Shown here piece after piece: positions 7,924 through 32,992 of a DNA stretch of 38,965 bases. The position numbers were made by a program, and so were the translations under genes. The notes under the pieces are model-generated. The model had not been told where the DNA came from, did not search any database, and was given only the letters and a program-made list of their open reading frames with translations. The DNA comes from Betaproteobacteria bacterium (lineage in GTDB: Bacteria; Pseudomonadota; Gammaproteobacteria; Burkholderiales; Rhodocyclaceae), in assembly GCA_009779355.1 (NCBI GenBank), contig WREK01000005.1, positions 1 through 38,965 of the forward strand. Direction: 5' to 3'. The stretch's first letter is position 1. Each line of letters opens with the position of its first letter.

Positions 7924-8015
7924 CCGACCTATGATTCACTTCGGGCTACACTTGCCGCCAACTATGATATCGGGATGCAATCGCCCTGCAACGTGCAGGG
8001 GTATAGGGACGGCGG
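7924..8015. repeat. Dispersed intergenic repeat, copy 2 (modules A 7924-7988 and B' 7989-8015)
   Basis: See copy 1; also contains the perfect hairpin CCCTGCA-ACG-TGCAGGG (7984-8000); ends immediately next to the guaD stop codon. Confidence 0.8.
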
Positions 8016-14191: not shown

Positions 14192-17100
14192 TCATGTGCG
14201 GGGGACGTAATTGGCAATCAGACCGAGCAGTTCTTCTTCCTGATATGGTTTGCCAAGGTAATGGTTTGCGCCGATTTCCATCGCGTAGTCACGGTGTTTG
14301 TCGGCAAGCCGTGAGGTAATCATAATGATCGGCACATTCTTCAGTTTGGCGTCGGCGCGGATGTTGCGGACGAGGTCGAAGCCGTCCATGCGCGGCATTT
14401 CGATGTCGGAGAGGATCACGTCGGGAATGTTGTCCATCAGCGACTCGATGGCGTCGACGCCATCTTTGGCGGTGATGACGCGATAGCCTTCACGCTCCAG
14501 CAAGCGGCTGGTGATCTTACGCACGGTCAGCGAGTCGTCGACCACCATGACCGTTGGTTCGTGTATGACTTCCGACTCCAGCAGGTCTTCGATCACCGCT
14601 GGTGCTGTTCCGAGAATCCTGCTTGCCTGAGCATAGCCGATCTCGCGGTTCGCCATCGCGACGGGATTGATGATGAGCACGATCTCGCCGTTGCCGAGTA
14701 CGGTGGCTCCAGACATGCCGACGACACGGGTAAGTTGCGGGCCGGCGTTTTTGACGATGATTTCCTGGTGGCCACGCAGGGCATCTACCTGTAGAGCCAG
14801 GGTCTGCCCGCCGGAATGCAGCAACAATATCCAGCTATAGCGGCCAATTTCCGGTCGGGCGAAAGGATTGCCGAACAGGTTCGGTAAGTAGTGATAGCTG
14901 TATTGCTGTCCAAGCCATTCGATACTGCCTTCTGCCCGCAGGCGATGGACTGCATCGGCCTTCAGTTCAATGATCTGCGAAATCATGCTGGCTGGGATCG
15001 CGTAGAGTTGAGACCCCGAACGCACTAGCAGAGCCTGGGTGACGGCCAGGGTGAGCGGTAGGTAGATGCTGAACATCGTCCCTTCGCCGGGAATGGTGGA
15101 GATGTCGACCCGCCCGCCAACTGCTGCGGTCTCGGCCTTCACGACATCCATACCGACTCCGCGTCCGGAAACGGCAGTTACTTTTTCGGCGGTCGTGAAG
15201 CCGGGAAGGAATATCAGATTCGAGAGCCGCCGTTCATCAGCAACCTCGTCAGGCCCGATCAAGCCATGTTCGCGGGCGCGCGCGGCGATGCGCTCGAAAT
15301 CCAGCCCTGCGCCGTCGTCGGCTAGTTCGATGACGATTTCGTTACCTTCCTGCCGTGTTGTGAGCGTGATCTGGCCGATTTCGGGTTTGCCTTTTGCCTG
15401 GCGCAATTCCAAAGGCTCGATGCCATGCGCCAGCGAGTTGCGCAACAGATGTTCGAGCGGTGCGACGATGCGGTCGAGCACACTACGGTCGATTTCGATG
15501 CCGCCGCCGCGGAGGTCGAGGTTGGCGCGTTTACCGAGTTCCTTGGCACCCTGGCGTACGATGCGGTATAGGCGCACGGCGAGGCTGTCGAACGGAACCA
15601 TGCGCACCTGCATCAGCGCTTGTTGCAGTTCGCGGGTGGTGCGTGCCTGACTGTGCAGGGCAATGTCGGCGCTGTCGAGGTTTTTCAGCAGATTTTGCTG
15701 CACCGTGGTGACGTCGTTGACGCTCTCGGCCATCATCCGTGTGAGTTCCTGCAGACGGGTGTAGCGATCCATCTCCAGCGGATCGAACTCGGCATGGCTC
15801 TTTTCGGCTTGGGCGATGCGGGTCTGCATCTGTACGTCGGCCTGGATTTCGACTTCGCGCAACTGGTTGCGCAGGCGGATGACGTTTTCGGTGAGATCGA
15901 GCAGGCTCCGGCGCAACTGGCGTAATTCACCTTCGATGCGGGTACGGGCTACGCCGATTTCGCTGGCATCATTGACGAAGCTATCCAGCAATTCCGCACG
16001 CACACGCAAGGCAGCGCTGAGGGCCTCGCTTTCGATCTGTGCGGCTTTGGGGGCGGCGGCGGTAGACTTTGTTTCCGGCAAGGACGCGACAACGAAGGGG
16101 AAACTGATCGTTTCGGCGTCCCTGTGCGTGAATTCGTCGTCGGCAAAGGGCTGGATAGGCGGTTCGGTTGGCTCGGGCACAGTTTCGATAGCGGGCACTT
16201 TGGAGGCTGGGTCTGCCAGTGCAGCAACCATCTGTTCGATGCCGTCCAGCGCGGAATCGATTTCGTCAACGAGTGATGTAATGTTGTCCCCGGCGCTGAG
16301 TGCCGACTCTACACGGGATTCAAGCTGGTGTATCTGGTTGCCCAGGATCATTGCCCCAGCCATTCTCGCACTGCCCTTGAGGGTGTGTAGTTGCCGTTTC
16401 ACAAGCATGGGATGCTTGGTGCTGGCGAGATCATTGCCCCAGGCGCGCGAAGTGACGTGCAACTCGTTTATCAGTTCCCCAGCTTCTTCAAGGAAGATCG
16501 GAAGCAGTTGTTCGTCGATTTCGTCGTGGACGCCCGGTTGGGCGCTTACCATCAAGGAGGAGGGTTTCGGCGAGGAGGGCTTTTTCGGCGAAGAAGACGG
16601 TTTCAGCGCGATTTCGGGTTTGGTGACTGCAACGGCTTCAGGGAAATTTTTCGCCACGGCCTCGGCAATGGCCTTGTCGTCGGATTTTGTTGTGTCGATT
16701 ACCTGTTCATGACCAATCCTGTCGAGTTGTTCGATCAGTTCCGGCGTTTCCAGCGGCATGTGCAGACCGATGACTGTGATCAGCATGCTGTCCAGCGTGT
16801 CGGTACAGGTCTTGAGCAAAGCCAGTTCGTTGGCTCTTGGCGGGCGGTTCAGGTCATGGATGCGTTGTTGTGCCAGTTCCAGTGCTTTGCCGAGCGTGTA
16901 AAGCGGGGTACAGCGCGCAGTACCTGAGATACCTGCGCATGAGTGTGCGGCACGCAAGGAGGCTTCCGGCAGCAGCAGCGTGGGATTGTTAGCAAGATGG
17001 CCCAATTCCTGGTGTAGCGTGAAGATGTGCGCCTGGGCTTCGGCTATGTAGAGTTCAAACAACGTCCGTGATATTTCAACATCGTCGATATAGAGTGTGT

Positions 17101-20100
17101 CGTAATCGGGCTTGGCCGATGGTTTTTCAGCGGCAGGACTGGTTTGAACCTTTTCGTCCAAAAAGTCGGGAGTCTTTTGATACGGTTTCGGGAGATCTTC
17201 GATTTCATCAACGCTTGCTTCGCTTACCTGATCACGCGTTGTGGGAATTTCGTCCAGAAAGTATTCCTGTTCATTTTCATTGGGGGGAGGTTGATCCCCT
17301 CCGGTCTCCTGATCGGAGATTTCCAGATACAGTTCGCGGAAGCCTTCAGTTTCATGAATGTTTGTTTCGCTTACCCCGTCACTTATTGCGGGGATTGAAC
17401 CCGACCCGGGTTCGGGCGTTTCGCTCTTGGATAGTTCAAGGTCGAATTCGAGCGTTTTTTCCTCGAATGCCTCAAGACTGGATTCAGAGGGGGCGCCCAC
17501 AGATATCTCAAGGTCGAATTCGATAGGCGTTTTGCTCCTGGATGGTTCAAGATCGAATTCGAGCGGTTTTTTCTCGGATACCTCAAGGCTGGATTCAGAG
17601 GGGGCGCCCACGGATATCTCAAGGTCGAATTCGATGGGCGTTTCGCTCCTGGATGGTTCAAGGTCGAATTCGAGCGGTTTTTTCTCGGATACCTCAAGGC
17701 TGGATTCAGAGGGGGCGCCTACGGATATCTCAAGGTCGAATTCGATGGGCGTTTTACTCCTGGATGGTTCAAAACCAGATTTAGGCGTTTTGCTCCTGGA
17801 TGGCTCAAAACCAGATTTGGGCGTTTTGCTCCTGGATGGTTTAAAGCTGGATTTGGGCGTTGGTTCAATGTCGAATTCGAGTATCTTGTGCTCGGATGGC
17901 CTGAAATCGAATTTAAGCGAGGGCTTTTCGCTCTCAGATGTCTCAGTTTCAAGGCCTATTTTTTCGAGATTGAAATCTTCGCGTTCTCCAAGCTTTCTGC
18001 CAAGTTCAAATGTGAACGGTGAAAAATCAAAAGGCTCGAATTTTGGCACGGCCGGTCGCTTTGGCTTACCGGGTGTGGGATATTTTGCTGCTTTGGAGGG
18101 TAAGGTTTCGGGTTCGTCGCTTTGGGATGTTTCAGGCGCGATAGTCTCAGCGCGGCTTTCTTCGTCGAACACTCCAGGCTCGTCAAGCGAGATGATATCG
18201 ATATCGTCGTCGTCGACAAACTCGTATGGCGTGCCTTCTGGCGTGGGGGGGGCGAAGCCCGGTTCTTCGGCTTCCGGTTCTTCGACTTGCCAGGTGTCGA
18301 GACCGGAAGAACTGGGCGGGATTTCGGGCAAGCTTTCCGGTTCGCCGGCAGCTTGTTCGGATACGGCTTCGGGCGTGGTTTTGAATTCAGGCGCGGTGAG
18401 CGGAACGAATTCTTCGCTTGGCGCACCGCTGCTGCGCAGGTGTTCAGCTTGCGCCAGGAGTGTCGAGACATCGCGCCAGTATTTGGACTTTTTGTCGATC
18501 TGGTTGACCCAGGCCATGAACTCGTCATGAGCAGTGGAGAGCAGTTCCAACAGCGGCGGGGTGATCTGCCATTCGAGTTGTAGCCAGCGGTTGAGGGTCT
18601 GTTCCAGTCCCCAGGCGGCTTCGCCCAGGTCGGTCAGGCCGACCATGCGGCCACTGCCTTTGAGGGTATGAAAACTGCGCCGGATGACAGTAAGATTGTC
18701 GCGCGCGTCGGGTGAGGCGCGAAGCAGTTCGAGATGTTCGATCACCGATTCCAGCACTTCGTGTGCTTCTTCAATGAAGATGGCAAGCAACTCGGCATCG
18801 AGGTCTGCTTGAGGTGTGGTCGACGAAATGTGGGTGGCGACTGGTGGCGAAACGGGTTTTGCGGACAGTTCCAGCAGCGCCTCTACATCTTGCGCATCTG
18901 CCTCGGTTTCGATCACGAAGGTCGGGAAAGTCTCGACGCCGTCGATCGGGCCGGAAGGTGTCTGTGGTTCTGCGGTAGCCGGAATCGCAGGGATATCGGG
19001 CAGTTCCGGCAGGTCGATGCTGAAAATTTCTGGTTTGACAGAAACGGTGGGCGGACTCAGGAACTGGATAATAGATGTGCGATTGTATGGCAGCGACTGA
19101 ACGAAGAAGCCCAGAGCCGAGAAACGTCGCGCGAGTTCGGTGAGTTCGGCATCATCGACAGGCGAATCTTCCGGGGTCAGACGGGTGATGATTTCACCGG
19201 CTTCCCGAATCAGGGAGATGGCATCGTTCTCGTTGAGCAGGGACAATGCGCCCTCGATCTGGTGCAGCGGCGCGTGCAAGGTTTGCAACGGCGCGCGTTT
19301 CGAGTGGTCACGGAAAAAGTCGTCAAGGGTTTGTTCGATGGCAGCGAGGCTGGAAAGAATTTCGCGTGAGAGTTGCGCGATAGCTTCTTTTTCCTGTTGT
19401 TTGCGTGCGGATTCGACACTGGTCGTGCTGGGTTGCGCGTCAAGTTCTTCGCCGCGCGCAAGCGCCTCCAGTCTGGAGAGCGCCTCGCCCGCCTGAGTCT
19501 GGAAGCTGGGGTCAGGAAGTGCACGACCAAGGGCCACTTCCGCTAGCAGGAGGGCAGTGGCGAATTCGAGAGCGATAGGTTCGGAGTAACGCTGCGGGTT
19601 CGCGTCCAACCAGGCGATGAAACGGCACATGCCGCCAAGCAGCCGGTAGAGAACGGGACGACCGAGCGGAGTGGTGGATTTCGTGAAAGCTTCGATCTGG
19701 GCGTTGAATGTGGACAGCGCCGACGTGCCCTGTTCGCCAAAGGTGTTCCATTTATCCTTGATGCGGGTGAGTTCCGTGTGTAGTTCCTGGAGCAACGGCC
19801 CCAGGGGCAGGTCACTGACAATTGCATCTTCTTCGGGAATCAGGGAGTCGAGTTGCCATGCCTGGCGCGTCGCTTGCTGGATCGGTGTGGAGGCGGGCTG
19901 GCTGGCGACGTGGTAGAGCAGTTCGCGCAACAGGCGTTCGGGCAAGACTTGTGGGCCATCCCCGAGGCGGTGCAACTGAGACTCGATCCGGGTCAGCAGA
20001 TGTCTGGTGCCAAGCTGTTCATCAGCCGACATGGTGGAGAACGCGTCGACGAATGCTTGCCCGGCCCACCACAGGGAGCGCATCCCTGGATTGTCTTCGG

Positions 20101-20707
20101 CGATTTCGAGTCCGGCCAGAGCCGTGCGCATAGCATCGATACCGCCAGCGTCTGACTGGCGCAGCCAGTCGATCAGGCCGCGCTGGAAGCGTGTGCGCAT
20201 GGATCGATATTGATGCTGCTGTTGCTCCGCGTCGAGCTTCTGTGCTCCGTCGCGCGAAGGGATGCGCACACTCAGGTCAGGGAAGAAGAGGTCGGCGGGC
20301 GAGGGAGCCGCTTCACCGCGGGCAAGCACGAGTTCCCGGTATAACGGCAACAGGCGCAGGGGCTGGTCGGGAGCGCCGTGAATCAACTCCTCAAGATAGT
20401 TGGCGATGCTGGCAAGCGCACGGCGACCAAGGGCGATTTGTGGGTCATCAAGTGGCAATTCACCTCGGACAAGTGCGGCGAGGAACAAGTCCAAGGCCGC
20501 GACGAATTTCGTCAGTCCATCCAGTCCGATGATAGACAAGGCCCCGTTGGCCTGGTGCAGGTGATTTTGTGCGAACTGTATCTTGTGGGAACTATCTGCT
20601 GATCCGAGCGCTGCCTGGAGGCTTTCGACCGCATGCAACAGCGCCTGGTCGATCTCGCTCTTGACCCAGGTGAGCGGGCCGAGATCCGGTTCATTGGCGT
20701 GCGTCAT
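14192..20707 (-). CDS. chpA: Chemotaxis-type hybrid histidine kinase ChpA/PilL with several Hpt domains, CheA kinase core, CheW and receiver domains
   Basis: Hpt motifs SFHTLKGSGRMVGL, AAHSCAGISGTA, QLHTLKGSARMAGA; kinase core LLRNSLAHGIEPLELR, DDGAGLD, SGRGVGMDVVK; receiver VMVVDDSLTVRKI...LSDIEMPRMDG...MITSRLADKHR. Confidence 0.95.
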   Translation of the reverse strand: MTHANEPDLGPLTWVKSEIDQALLHAVESLQAALGSADSSHKIQFAQNHLHQANGALSIIGLDGLTKFVAALDLFLAALVRGELPLDDPQIALGRRALASIANYLEELIHGAPDQPLRLLPLYRELVLARGEAAPSPADLFFPDLSVRIPSRDGAQKLDAEQQQHQYRSMRTRFQRGLIDWLRQSDAGGIDAMRTALAGLEIAEDNPGMRSLWWAGQAFVDAFSTMSADEQLGTRHLLTRIESQLHRLGDGPQVLPERLLRELLYHVASQPASTPIQQATRQAWQLDSLIPEEDAIVSDLPLGPLLQELHTELTRIKDKWNTFGEQGTSALSTFNAQIEAFTKSTTPLGRPVLYRLLGGMCRFIAWLDANPQRYSEPIALEFATALLLAEVALGRALPDPSFQTQAGEALSRLEALARGEELDAQPSTTSVESARKQQEKEAIAQLSREILSSLAAIEQTLDDFFRDHSKRAPLQTLHAPLHQIEGALSLLNENDAISLIREAGEIITRLTPEDSPVDDAELTELARRFSALGFFVQSLPYNRTSIIQFLSPPTVSVKPEIFSIDLPELPDIPAIPATAEPQTPSGPIDGVETFPTFVIETEADAQDVEALLELSAKPVSPPVATHISSTTPQADLDAELLAIFIEEAHEVLESVIEHLELLRASPDARDNLTVIRRSFHTLKGSGRMVGLTDLGEAAWGLEQTLNRWLQLEWQITPPLLELLSTAHDEFMAWVNQIDKKSKYWRDVSTLLAQAEHLRSSGAPSEEFVPLTAPEFKTTPEAVSEQAAGEPESLPEIPPSSSGLDTWQVEEPEAEEPGFAPPTPEGTPYEFVDDDDIDIISLDEPGVFDEESRAETIAPETSQSDEPETLPSKAAKYPTPGKPKRPAVPKFEPFDFSPFTFELGRKLGEREDFNLEKIGLETETSESEKPSLKFDFRPSEHKILEFDIEPTPKSSFKPSRSKTPKSGFEPSRSKTPKSGFEPSRSKTPIEFDLEISVGAPSESSLEVSEKKPLEFDLEPSRSETPIEFDLEISVGAPSESSLEVSEKKPLEFDLEPSRSKTPIEFDLEISVGAPSESSLEAFEEKTLEFDLELSKSETPEPGSGSIPAISDGVSETNIHETEGFRELYLEISDQETGGDQPPPNENEQEYFLDEIPTTRDQVSEASVDEIEDLPKPYQKTPDFLDEKVQTSPAAEKPSAKPDYDTLYIDDVEISRTLFELYIAEAQAHIFTLHQELGHLANNPTLLLPEASLRAAHSCAGISGTARCTPLYTLGKALELAQQRIHDLNRPPRANELALLKTCTDTLDSMLITVIGLHMPLETPELIEQLDRIGHEQVIDTTKSDDKAIAEAVAKNFPEAVAVTKPEIALKPSSSPKKPSSPKPSSLMVSAQPGVHDEIDEQLLPIFLEEAGELINELHVTSRAWGNDLASTKHPMLVKRQLHTLKGSARMAGAMILGNQIHQLESRVESALSAGDNITSLVDEIDSALDGIEQMVAALADPASKVPAIETVPEPTEPPIQPFADDEFTHRDAETISFPFVVASLPETKSTAAAPKAAQIESEALSAALRVRAELLDSFVNDASEIGVARTRIEGELRQLRRSLLDLTENVIRLRNQLREVEIQADVQMQTRIAQAEKSHAEFDPLEMDRYTRLQELTRMMAESVNDVTTVQQNLLKNLDSADIALHSQARTTRELQQALMQVRMVPFDSLAVRLYRIVRQGAKELGKRANLDLRGGGIEIDRSVLDRIVAPLEHLLRNSLAHGIEPLELRQAKGKPEIGQITLTTRQEGNEIVIELADDGAGLDFERIAARAREHGLIGPDEVADERRLSNLIFLPGFTTAEKVTAVSGRGVGMDVVKAETAAVGGRVDISTIPGEGTMFSIYLPLTLAVTQALLVRSGSQLYAIPASMISQIIELKADAVHRLRAEGSIEWLGQQYSYHYLPNLFGNPFARPEIGRYSWILLLHSGGQTLALQVDALRGHQEIIVKNAGPQLTRVVGMSGATVLGNGEIVLIINPVAMANREIGYAQASRILGTAPAVIEDLLESEVIHEPTVMVVDDSLTVRKITSRLLEREGYRVITAKDGVDAIESLMDNIPDVILSDIEMPRMDGFDLVRNIRADAKLKNVPIIMITSRLADKHRDYAMEIGANHYLGKPYQEEELLGLIANYVPRT
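17410..17870. repeat. In-frame tandem repeats within chpA (111-bp unit, then 36-bp unit)
   Basis: GGGCGCC(C/T)AC(A/G)GATATCTCAAGG recurs at 17491, 17602 and 17713 (period 111); GGCGTTTT(A/G)CTCCTGGATGG(T/C)TCAAAACCAGATTT-type unit repeats with period 36 at ~17750-17858. Confidence 0.95.
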
Positions 20708-28607: not shown

Positions 28608-30575
28608 TTAAGCCAGGGCAGCCAGAAGCGAGACGTTCTCTTCGGTTATGACCACCGCAGAATCCAGGGCACACCGGATGCCGCCCTGCAACTCTGTGAG
28701 TTCCCTGATCAGCGTTTCGGTTGATATTTCGGTCTGTTTTAATTCTTCGACCCGGTTTTCGAGGGTATCTGTCGCCTGATGGATGCGCCGGACGCTCTCC
28801 AACCGGCGTTTGAGTTGCAACTGGTATTCCCGTACCTGGATTTCGAGTGGAGCCATTACTGCCCGCAGCCATTGGTCGACATCGCGGTTGACGGATTCGA
28901 AAATGCGATGCACCTGAACCGCAGCCGTCTCGAAAAACTTCTTCATCAGAACGCGTTTCTCAGTCGTTACCAGCATCAGAGGGGAGCCAAGATGGCGATG
29001 GCAAACGCTTTCCAGATGGTTAAGTTCCGCCTCGCAACGGCGCATCGAGAATTTTTCCGGCGGGGTGAGCCTGAGTCCGTGTTCAACGCTGAAACGTTTG
29101 TACATGGCGTCGAGCATCCGATAGATCTCAGAGATGTCCGCCTCGGCCTTGCTGAGATGGGTGCGCATGCGCTGGAAGAAATCCTTCATCGCTTCGCGCA
29201 ATCCCAGCGAAAAGCGCGATTCAAGCATTGTGTCGCGCGTCTTGCGGGTTTCGGTGCGTAGGGTGTCCATCCCCAGGTGCGAAAGCAACTGGTTGGAGAG
29301 TCCAGTGAAGACCGAGCGTACGGCGTAGTATTTTTTGAGGCCCTGCTCGAATTCGTCCTTCTCGACGCGGATTTTGTACATCATGTATTCGACGACGCCG
29401 CGATTCTTGCCGTGCAGGCTGTCCAGCTCCTGAAGTTGTCCTTTTACCCCGGTGAGCCGTGCCTGCAGCAGCACTTCGGCCTGATGGATCAGGTCGCGGG
29501 TTTCTCCCAGGGTGTTGTCGCGGATGATTTCCTGCTTGGAAGGGAGCAAATCTTCTGACAGTACCCGTTCCAGGGCAGCCAGACGGCTTTTCCCGAACAG
29601 GTTCTTGTCTTGGTTGACGCGGGCTACCAGTCCTTTTTGCGCCGAAACCGGGAAAACCGAACCCGCGCTGATTTCGAGTGTTTCACTGACCGACTTCACC
29701 TGCCGTTCGAGTTCAGCATTGATGCTGGCTTCGTCGCGCAGGCCGTCCCAGAGTCCATCGATCTTGTTGAGAACGACCAGGCGCCCCTTTTCCCGTGCGC
29801 CGGTGCTGACGAAATCACGCCATACCGTCATGTCGCTCAGAGTGACGCCTGTATCGGCGGCGAGGATGAACAGCACGGCGTGGGCATTTGGCAGCAACGA
29901 AAGCGTCAGTTCAGGCTCTGCACCGATTGCGTTGAGCCCTGGCGTGTCGAGCACCACCAGCCCCTGTTCAAGCAGCGGGTGCGGAAACTGGATCACAGCA
30001 TGGCGCCATTTTGGCACTTCGACCAGATTGTCGGCCCCGGGTTTGAGTCCCGCTTCGCCACTCGGGTCGATCTTGAAGCCCAGATCCTGCGCTTGTTCTT
30101 CCGTCACCCTGTTTACGTCGCCTACTCGTGCCAATGTAGCCTGGAGCTTGGCGGGCGATCCGGTGTCAAGCGGTTCCACCACCCAACATTCCGGCAGCAG
30201 CTTGAGTTCGCTCACCGGCTCTGCGCGGACGCGCGTTTCGATTGGCAGCAGGCGCAATTCCGGCGTGGAATCCGGTGTCCATTGCAATTCCGTGGGGCAC
30301 ATCGTCGTACGTCCGGCGCTCGAAGGCAGGATGCGTCCACCGTGTTCAGCGAAAAAAATCGCGTTAATCAATTCGGATTTGCCGCGCGAAAACTCGGCAA
30401 CGAACGCGACCGTCAACTTATCGGCGCGCAGGCGTTCGATCAGGTATTGCAGGCGCTGATCGGCTTGAGCATCGCAGACGTCGTTGTTGTTCAACCAGTT
30501 ACGTAATCTCAGCACAGCATCGATTGTCTCGTTGCGCCAACGACTATAAGCTGAAAACTTTTCGGCCAGAGTCAT
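28608..30575 (-). CDS. Bacterial dynamin-like GTPase
   Basis: G1 AEFSRGKSELINAIF, G3 VVLDTPGLNAIG, G4 VLNKIDGLWD, long helical C-terminal region; ATG at 30575. Confidence 0.8.
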   Translation of the reverse strand: MTLAEKFSAYSRWRNETIDAVLRLRNWLNNNDVCDAQADQRLQYLIERLRADKLTVAFVAEFSRGKSELINAIFFAEHGGRILPSSAGRTTMCPTELQWTPDSTPELRLLPIETRVRAEPVSELKLLPECWVVEPLDTGSPAKLQATLARVGDVNRVTEEQAQDLGFKIDPSGEAGLKPGADNLVEVPKWRHAVIQFPHPLLEQGLVVLDTPGLNAIGAEPELTLSLLPNAHAVLFILAADTGVTLSDMTVWRDFVSTGAREKGRLVVLNKIDGLWDGLRDEASINAELERQVKSVSETLEISAGSVFPVSAQKGLVARVNQDKNLFGKSRLAALERVLSEDLLPSKQEIIRDNTLGETRDLIHQAEVLLQARLTGVKGQLQELDSLHGKNRGVVEYMMYKIRVEKDEFEQGLKKYYAVRSVFTGLSNQLLSHLGMDTLRTETRKTRDTMLESRFSLGLREAMKDFFQRMRTHLSKAEADISEIYRMLDAMYKRFSVEHGLRLTPPEKFSMRRCEAELNHLESVCHRHLGSPLMLVTTEKRVLMKKFFETAAVQVHRIFESVNRDVDQWLRAVMAPLEIQVREYQLQLKRRLESVRRIHQATDTLENRVEELKQTEISTETLIRELTELQGGIRCALDSAVVITEENVSLLAALA

Positions 30576-30653
30576 GTCAGTTCGTCCGTCACCCGGCATT
30601 TCCGAATATTCAAGTATAACGTGATTGCAATATACGGGATTAGCACAAATTAC

Positions 30654-30814
30654 GGATGGTCTGAATAAGTCGAGCGGTAAGTGTGCGCTGCGGATCGGGA
30701 TGGGATGCAAGGCGCAAACCACAGCCATAGCCGTCGCTATGGCTGTGGTTTGCAACGCCGCAGACCGCCCGACTCCGCAGATGCACACGGCGCGGCGACT
30801 TGTTCAGACCATCC
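30654..30814. mobile_element. 161-bp palindromic MITE-like element
   Basis: Terminal IR GGATGGTCTGAAtAAGTCG / CGACTTGTTCAGACCATCC and perfect central IR GCAAACCACAGCCATAGC-CGTC-GCTATGGCTGTGGTTTGC share the same centre (~30734). Confidence 0.75.
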
Positions 30815-31117
30815 TTAACGCTATCGTATGGCATATGTCGGGCCTCGATTCCCGCGATGAGTGGTAGGGTGAATCGAGGTGTGCGACAAAATCCCAAAAG
30901 TTCTCTTTTGATCATATCGTGGAATCCCCGGCTTTTCGGCCAAGGCGGTTCCAGATCCATCCGTCCGGAACCGATGATGTCCGTGACCCTTCGTTTTCTC
31001 TGCACTTGCCGTTACCCCATCAAAAAACATACCATAACATGTTGGACTTTTCATGTATTGGCTTCGCTATAAACGACGTCCAACTTTTTTCAGTAACCAC
31101 CCGCTGGATTGCCTGCC

Positions 31118-32992
31118 ATGAAGCACCCGCTTGCACGCATCATCATTCTTTTTGGAATCACCCTGGCGTTTTGTCTGCCTGTTTCGTCTGCCTTTGCGGA
31201 AGATCCCGATGAGTTGATCGAATTTAACACGAACACCGACATCAACGCAGACAATCCGGACGGAGATGAAGATGATGACGATGCTAATGACGAGTTCGAC
31301 ATATCCGACGCTGATGCCGCCGATGCTCCCGCCATTGAAAGTCCGGGCGAATTCCCTGCGCAAGAATTGAGTGCAGAAACGCTCCAGGATTTTCTGCTTG
31401 CTGAAATTGCTGCCTCACGTGGTCATTTTCGGGAATCGGCGCAAACCTATATTGCACTCGCACGCAAAACAAGCGACCCACGCATCGCGCATCGCGCCGC
31501 GTACATCGCCTCTCATTCGAAAGATAACAAACTCATCACCGAAGCCGCGCGGCTGTGGATCGAAATCGCCCCTAATTCAAAAGAAGCGCGCCACTTCCTG
31601 GACTATGTCGAACGCGGCTACAGCCCTTCCCTCAACAAACTCCGGGATGCCCTGGCGCAAGGCCTGGCCCAGAATCCCGAAAAACTCGCCCCCAACCTGT
31701 TAGGACTCAACCGCATCCTTTCGAGAGCCGAAAACAAGGATGTGACACGGAGTCTCATTTATCGCGTAACCGAACCTTATCTCACGTACCCCGAAGCCCA
31801 TTTCGCACGCGCCCAGGCGGCTATGGTCGCCAAACGCTCGATGGAGGCGACGGGAGCGCTCGACCGTGCTCTTGAACTGCGTCCCGACTGGCTGCCGGCG
31901 CTGATGCTCAAGACCCATCTTCTGGTCGAAGCCGGCGCGGCGGATCAGGCCAATGTGATGCTCAAAGCTGCGCTGGAACGCGAACCAGGAAACCGTGAAC
32001 TTCGGATTGCCTATGCCCGTAGCCTGGTTGCCGCCAACAAACTCGCCGAAGCGCGCGACGAGTTCAATACTCAGCTTGCCGCCACACCTGATGACCGCGA
32101 CCTGCTCTATGCCGTTGCCATGATTTCCGTCGAGCTCAATGATCCCGCCGCCGAATCGCTATTGAAAAAGGTTCTGGCTTCTGGCCATCCGCAAGCAGAC
32201 ATCATCCGGCTTCAACTCGGAAAGATCGCCATGGAACGGGACGAAAACGCCGCCGCACGAAAATGGTTCGATGCCGTGAGTCCTGGTGGATATACCGCTG
32301 AAGCGCGCATCTACAGCGCCCGGAGCCTGGCAAAGGAAGGCCGTCTCGATCAGGCGCGCAAACTCTTGCGCGAGGCCCCGAATCCCGACATTCAGCGCCG
32401 CTACCTGCTCGCCGAATCCCAACTGCTCATGGAAGGAGGCCGTGTCCGGCAGGCGTTTGATCTCATCGAGAATGCCCTGCGCGAACATCCCGACGACAAT
32501 GACCTGCTCTATGAGTCCGCCATGCTTGCCGAACGCATCGGCATGTACGAGAGCATGGAAGGACGGTTGCGCAAGCTTATTGCCCTGGCTCCCGAACATG
32601 CGCACGCCTACAACGCGCTTGGTTACTCCTTAACTGATCGTGGCCTGCGTCTGGAAGAAGCCGAGGAGTTGATCGCCCGCGCTCTGGAAATTCTTCCCAA
32701 GGATCCGTACATCCTCGACAGCATGGGTTGGGTGCGCTTCAAACGCGGCGACTTCCCCGGCGCGCTGAAATGGATCGAACAAGCCCATACCATCCGTTCC
32801 GACCCCGAAATCGCCGCTCATCTCGGTGAAGTGCTGTGGCGGTTGGATCGTAACGATGAAGCCCGTCGCATCCTTGACGGCGCGCAAGCGGCGCATCCCG
32901 GTAACGAGACTTTGAAAAAAACGATCCACCGCCTGTACCCCGCTCCCAGTAAAAAAGCCCCTGGGAAGAAAACTTCGGGTAAGAAACATTGA
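31118..32992 (+). CDS. Tetratricopeptide repeat protein with signal peptide and acidic linker
   Basis: Signal peptide MKHPLARIIILFGITLAFCLPVSSAFA; Asp/Glu-rich stretch; repeated TPR-type helices e.g. AHAYNALGYSLTDRGLRLEEAEELIARALEILPKDPYILDSMGWVRFKRGDFPGALKWIEQA. Confidence 0.85.
   Translation: MKHPLARIIILFGITLAFCLPVSSAFAEDPDELIEFNTNTDINADNPDGDEDDDDANDEFDISDADAADAPAIESPGEFPAQELSAETLQDFLLAEIAASRGHFRESAQTYIALARKTSDPRIAHRAAYIASHSKDNKLITEAARLWIEIAPNSKEARHFLDYVERGYSPSLNKLRDALAQGLAQNPEKLAPNLLGLNRILSRAENKDVTRSLIYRVTEPYLTYPEAHFARAQAAMVAKRSMEATGALDRALELRPDWLPALMLKTHLLVEAGAADQANVMLKAALEREPGNRELRIAYARSLVAANKLAEARDEFNTQLAATPDDRDLLYAVAMISVELNDPAAESLLKKVLASGHPQADIIRLQLGKIAMERDENAAARKWFDAVSPGGYTAEARIYSARSLAKEGRLDQARKLLREAPNPDIQRRYLLAESQLLMEGGRVRQAFDLIENALREHPDDNDLLYESAMLAERIGMYESMEGRLRKLIALAPEHAHAYNALGYSLTDRGLRLEEAEELIARALEILPKDPYILDSMGWVRFKRGDFPGALKWIEQAHTIRSDPEIAAHLGEVLWRLDRNDEARRILDGAQAAHPGNETLKKTIHRLYPAPSKKAPGKKTSGKKH

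Follow-up and report, generated by a model that had tools for sequence, protein, structure and literature searches.

A probable IS5-group type II MITE whose structured core recurs under many unrelated termini

What is the 161-bp near-palindrome that separates a gene for a dynamin-like GTPase from one for a TPR-repeat protein in a Betaproteobacteria bacterium of the Rhodocyclaceae: a mobile element, a hairpin acting on its neighbours, or an ordinary part of the intergenic region? The window analysed here is a stretch of 38,965 nucleotides corresponding to contig 5 of a draft genome (255 contigs, 2.58 Mb, 91% complete). An earlier note, made from the letters alone, had described positions 30654–30814 as a single quasi-palindrome with inverted outer arms, a perfect 18-bp inner stem closed by a CGTC loop and no plausible protein, and this description is borne out by the analysis. 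Indeed, folding of 30634–30834 as DNA yields −71.6 kcal/mol versus −34.8±3.2 kcal/mol for dinucleotide shuffles (z −11.57, with 0 of 200 shuffles as good), the outer arms are 91% complementary in a mechanical repeat search which also recovers the inner stem and its loop, and comparison with the other genomic copies sets the ends of the element exactly at 30654 and 30814. The 161 bp are without coding capacity, and inside them we found neither a promoter-like site nor a T-tailed terminator (a G+C stem followed by a T-run). The features of the locus are collected in Table 1.

Table 1. Features of the element and of its surroundings (window positions).
Feature	Position	Strand	Evidence or remark
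161-bp non-autonomous element (MITE)	30654..30814	+ (orientation: core reads AAGGCGC ... GCAACG)	23-copy alignment; empty sites in 8 relatives
Left terminal inverted repeat GGATGGTCTGAATAAGTC	30654..30671	+	1–2 bases from intact IS5 ends GGAAGGTCTGAACAAGTC
Right terminal inverted repeat GGATGGTCTGAACAAGTC	30797..30814	-	1 base from ends of L320 IS5
Left target-site duplication TTAC, mutated from TTAA	30650..30653	.	relatives' empty site reads TTAA
Right target-site duplication TTAA	30815..30818	.	copy flanks and relatives' empty site
Conserved structured core	30695..30772	+	covariance model R1 match (L001 1546–1623, 81.5 bits); covariation
Core constant box AGGCG	30710..30714	+	kept in 26/26 distant loci listed; near-invariant in alignments A2, A3
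Core constant box CAACG	30753..30757	+	kept in 26/26 distant loci listed; near-invariant in alignments A2, A3
Inner hairpin, 18-bp perfect stem 30714–30731 / 30736–30753, loop CGTC	30714..30753	+	mechanical inverted-repeat search
Window-specific patch TGTGG (GAGGA in the other 22 copies), makes inner stem perfect	30744..30748	+	copy alignment
Dynamin-like GTPase gene	28608..30575	-	Pfam Dynamin_N 1.2e-12; true start 30575, 78 bp from element
TPR-repeat protein gene, divergent neighbour	31109..32992	+	Pfam TPR families

The placement of the element between these two genes, also proposed from the letters, agrees with the Pfam matches obtained for both of them. The 71-aa extension of the GTPase that had been noted as running through the element is likewise found in the sequence, in that a 726-aa ORF (28608–30788) does enter it; the Dynamin_N protein has 655 aa from its natural start, the ATG at 30575. 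Because this ATG is conserved in relatives and the sequence upstream of it is not, the extension and the ORF start at 30788 are, as judged from the comparison of sequences, an artefact. A cis-regulatory role of the element was considered and discarded, as a simple and noisy ORF calling gave no orientation bias of the neighbouring genes relative to core elements. Elsewhere in the window we observed a 66-nt inverted repeat (745–810 and 7924–7989, 89% complementary, 7.1 kb apart) and tandem repeats of 111 and 36 bp (17414–17889) within a 2171-aa ORF (14192–20707, minus strand).

A mobile element is expected in multiple copies with the same ends, and BLAST against the source genome returned 23 full or partial copies with 92–97% identity. 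Ten are full or nearly full and the rest are partial at contig ends, most of them broken near the apex as expected where a repeat breaks the assembly; the former together with eight left halves amount to at least 18 insertion sites. The ends GGATGGTCTGAATAAGTC / GACTTGTTCAGACCATCC are common to all 23 copies, and a search for the end sequence allowing up to three mismatches resulted in 31 matches in the genome, all within MITE copies, versus none for a reversed-pattern control. Exact 4-bp target duplications were identified in six of the eight evaluable copies (TTAA in three, otherwise CAAG, ATAA or TCAA), and the remaining two, including the window copy (TTAC/TTAA), match at three of four bases. 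Half copies adjoin CTAG, CTAA, CAAG or TTAA, with a single exception (L012, ATAT). Transposases of the IS5 group have a YTAR-like 4-bp target preference, and the targets of the MITE, which include TTAA, CTAG and CTAA and the variants CAAG, ATAA and TCAA, fit such a target.

Using the joined flanks of four copies, we have searched 22 genomes of the genus for orthologous empty sites. At the window site all eight relatives recovered (G020, G012, G010, G009, G014, G018, G013 and G017) lack the element, AAATTAACGC or a close variant of it being uninterrupted there, and the site of another copy (L006) is empty in 6 of 6. The window copy was therefore inserted after the split from these species, and since the empty site reads TTAA this was the original target. 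Clearly, a single copy kept at the same place in all relatives, the outcome which the earlier note had named as speaking against mobility, is not what is observed. The source genome also harbours a second dispersed repeat with ends CAGGATGCTCAAAAA (L002 from 1667, L004, L010, L051 at about 590–1120, and L057), to which the MITE copies in L002 and L004 are directly adjoined, and in L005 a MITE copy is flanked by a further repeat, GTAGGATGGGTAGAGCGTAAGCGAAATCCATC (query 795–891), of which the genome holds eight or more partial copies.

We have investigated the origin of the ends by searching 399 genomes of the order for end pairs, with one mismatch allowed. Inverted GGAAGGTCTGAACAAGTC pairs bound 1174 bp in genome G065 and 1165 bp in G330, each enclosing a full-length transposase (a 327-aa ORF), and these IS5 ends differ by one base from the right end of the MITE. 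CTAG borders the G065 element at either end, and the protein of this element corresponds to NCBIfam IS5_4 at 6e-100. Independently, when 85,000 species genomes were scanned, the exact 19-nt end GGATGGTCTGAACAAGTCG turned up in Candidatus Palauibacter, where it follows CTAG and heads a 333-aa IS5_4 transposase. Extended to 19 nt, the right end of the MITE coincides letter for letter with the IS5 end in L084 and L089. The IS5 ends of G097 (GGCAACGCTGAACAAG) are similar to those of the palindromes in that genome. IS5 copies sit at TTAG, CTAG and CTAA, which agrees with the YTAR preference. A resident IS with matching ends, which the earlier note had suggested looking for, was not found in the 91%-complete draft: it contains only partial IS5_4 genes, none of them seen with MITE ends in an assembly fragmented exactly at repeats, and every end-like sequence in it belongs to the MITE itself, so that a resident parent was set aside. 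From the ends, the mobiliser is identified to family (IS5 group) and not to a resident copy; the candidate would be an intact 1.1–1.2 kb IS5 with GGAWGGTCTGAAYAAGTC ends. An IS630-type mobiliser for relatives ending in TAGTGTAGTG was also considered and is unsupported, DDE_3 (PF13358) being present in only 2 of 12 such genomes.

Beyond the ends of about 18 bp we saw no likeness between the MITE and IS5 elements, and the element therefore falls among type II MITEs as defined, along with type I, in PMC10969869. Like the type II MITEs mobilised by IS5-group elements it is small, non-coding and multi-copy, with IS ends around a non-IS interior and target duplications of IS length; unlike them, its interior is a conserved structured core common to palindromes with unrelated ends. 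The IS5-group IS itself (NCBIfam NF033581, IS5_4; the 1174-bp L320 element) has the same terminal 18 bp, apart from one base at the right end, and the same YTAR-like target, but carries a 327-aa transposase and the resemblance ends at the termini.

When relatives were searched with the element, the palindromes returned were alike only in the middle, where they share a core of about 80 bp (AAGGCGC-stem-GCAG-apex-CGAG-stem-GCAACG). A covariance model built from an alignment of 12 such palindromes matches 161 of 399 genomes and 81 of 159 genera of the order (E≤0.001), and copy numbers are lower bounds, as 12 candidates per genome were scored. Searches at the level of class and phylum resulted in matches in 102 of 369 and 82 of 399 cases, these being model hits among which 26 loci were inspected. 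All 26 distant loci listed keep AGGCG and CAACG, letters which pairing does not fix, and because of this the distant core family was accepted and the reading of weak hits in other classes as generic hairpins was set aside.

Inspection of about 100 core-bearing loci for their termini evidences the core under about ten unrelated terminal types, in the order and beyond it, Table 2 being a minimum list of the ends. Among 11 representatives of different terminal types, the core boxes and the first stem have a mean identity of 83% (minimum 67%), and the arms 30–70 nt out have 57%, versus 56% for shuffled arms. A 99-bp MITE in G398 (L323 1501–1599) has nearly the ends of the window element, with CTAA on both sides, around an unrelated palindromic interior. 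Conservation of the core under different ends, together with the same ends on an unrelated interior, thus indicates that ends and core are separable. Neither the element nor six other loci with the core gave an Rfam covariance-model match, and a literature search with core or end sequences, covering open-access text only so that an earlier name is possible, returned nothing relevant. As far as the sequences indicate, the core is apparently a large, uncatalogued hairpin family inside mobile-looking palindromes across Proteobacteria. Some loci contain two cores in opposite orientation, about 105–110 bp apart (L290 1501–1684, L167 261–446 and L289 486–669); such opposed pairs are present in several relatives and sometimes joined by a CCCGAAGGG linker.

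Table 2. Ends under which the core was found.
Ends	Where
GGATGGTCTGAATAAGTC	window element
GGGAAACGCTGAAYAAGTC	G097, G184
GGGAACCTCTGCACGAATC	G434, G262; close form on Cupriavidus plasmid
GGGATGCGCTGAACAAATC	G316
TAGTGTAGTGTTTCG	G067; close form in G091
TAGTGTYGCGAATCAGAAA	G226
TAGTACGTCGRCACG	G407, G256
AGAAGGTGTGAA and close forms	G407, G412
GAACGTGTTTACGATCTCC	G152, Comamonas plasmid
AGAGCCTGTTCAATATC	G084
GGGTCTGTTTGCAATTGG	G260
AGGGAACTTCTAAAAACCC	G384
GGGCTCGTTAATGAA	G093, G181, G301 and others; often with second, inverted core

The conservation of the core concerns its structure as well as its letters. In 109 core sequences 94% of the cells pair and 23 of 26 pairs show double changes, which corresponds to a covariation score of 0.66 versus 0.07–0.15 for slid structures; in 36 further, mostly distant, core sequences the score is 0.78. 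The boxes AAGGCGC, GCAG, CRAG and GCAACG persist and the stems between them change by compensation. Pairs 1–5 of core stem 1 comprise 39 G·U versus 2 A·C cells (33 versus 2 when counted once per genome), and arms mostly outside the core model 99 versus 38. The loci behind these counts were found by means of an RNA model with a mild preference for G·U, the copies are related and the alignments were fitted to the model. As a cruciform under selection on both strands should give equal numbers, the prevalence of G·U over A·C suggests selection on one folded strand of the core, either RNA or single-stranded DNA.

In view of the 23 copies with the same ends, the 4-bp duplications and the empty sites, the reading as a MITE put forward in the earlier note is supported, the resident mobilising IS being the part not found, and we consider it highly probable that the element is a non-autonomous type II MITE of the IS5 group with a conserved core and separable termini. 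Taken as a MITE, the element belongs soundly to a known kind, and the new part is the core common to many termini. An IS5-group DDE transposase supplied in trans would bind the ends of about 18 bp and move the element into a YTAR-like 4-bp target (TTAA in this case), duplicating the target on insertion. The body of the MITE would not derive from the IS, being rather a conserved quasi-palindromic chassis around the structured hairpin core, and termini and core would behave as separable modules, the core also lying inside palindromes with other ends. We infer for the core an independent role as a folded single strand, either RNA or single-stranded DNA, which may lie in RNA processing or in aiding transposition, selfish baggage being the other possibility. 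A bolder proposal, which we put forward tentatively and hold to be somewhat doubtful as a whole, is that the core may be an ancient, independently selected folded strand (RNA or single-stranded DNA) which rides in non-autonomous transposons across Proteobacteria and swaps terminal repeats so that different transposases move it, that is, a modular parasite of transposition systems.

Other readings have to be weighed against the main one, the type II MITE of the IS5 group. That the element is an ordinary IS5-type MITE of one old lineage, in which the core is shared by descent only, the ends have drifted to follow one transposase or another and the core does nothing more than form a palindrome, is a serious possibility to which we give chances not far below even. 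Indeed, the IS5-like terminal types (window, G434, G316 and G409) share some arm sequence next to the core in a graded series, and the lack of orientation bias towards genes is as for selfish DNA; however, constant unpaired boxes and compensatory changes in the stems are still seen in other classes of the phylum, with the arms at the shuffled level between terminal types, the G·U excess is strand-specific, and the same ends also enclose an unrelated interior. The core might instead act as an RNA hairpin in read-through transcripts, for example as an RNase III or protein-binding site affecting the neighbours, as reported for the Correia/NEMIS elements of Neisseria. These are likewise short palindromic MITEs with strong RNA hairpins beside genes, a likeness in general design only, and cleavage by RNase III of transcripts containing Correia elements has been reported (review PMC10969869). 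The predicted fold is very stable and more so on the core strand (−120.9 versus −107.3 kcal/mol for the opposite strand), on which the G·U excess is also found, but the neighbours have no preferred orientation, the element has no promoter-like site and Rfam gives no match, and we regard this reading as rather unlikely.

Folded sites of other kinds fare considerably worse. REPs, which are 20–40 bp long and bear GTAG or CGTC as an unpaired terminal tag on one side (PMC3733652), are also widespread structured intergenic palindromes in Proteobacteria and sometimes form opposed pairs, and both they and integron attC-like recombination sites would account for a structured hairpin in which internal mismatches are conserved and the apex varies, and for the paired inverted hairpins of L290 and L167. 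The window element, however, contains no GTAG, the one CGTC in it forms the apical loop rather than an unpaired tag at the foot, the attC R-box motifs RYYYAAC / GTTRRRY are on neither strand, and terminal inverted repeats are present together with 4-bp target duplications; both identities were rejected for want of tags and R-boxes, and a site of either type is very improbable. An ordinary intrinsic terminator, or an old conserved regulatory hairpin of this locus, would suit a hairpin between two genes, but these genes are divergent, there is no T-run, the window site is empty in all eight relatives and the element is found at no fewer than 18 other sites. This reading, contradicted by the empty sites and the missing T-run, has a practically negligible probability.

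The usual view of a MITE is that of a decayed IS remnant, recognised by its ends. In the present case it is the middle that is conserved, as a covarying hairpin present in about 40% of the genomes sampled in the order, and the ends vary. Should the core prove to be functional in its own right, it would mark a class of modular bacterial mobile elements that annotation based on ends misses. The core family supplies many natural variants for testing the role of the hairpin, and the system offers a MITE whose ends are one base away from those of an IS5 family, as well as a recent insertion between divergent genes.

The perfect inner stem is a property of the window copy only. This copy differs from the copy consensus solely at the TGTGG patch (Table 1), where four substitutions in five bases each bring the right arm into exact complementarity with the left. 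Clusters of arm-matching substitutions such as this one arise when a quasi-palindrome undergoes templated correction, and the window copy would be a natural example of what it produces, its stem being perfect in this copy only because such a correction probably made the right arm complement the left. A further observation concerns G067, in which a fluoride riboswitch (L099 1365–1463, minus strand; Rfam RF01734, with a score exceeding the gathering cutoff) adjoins a core-bearing palindrome.
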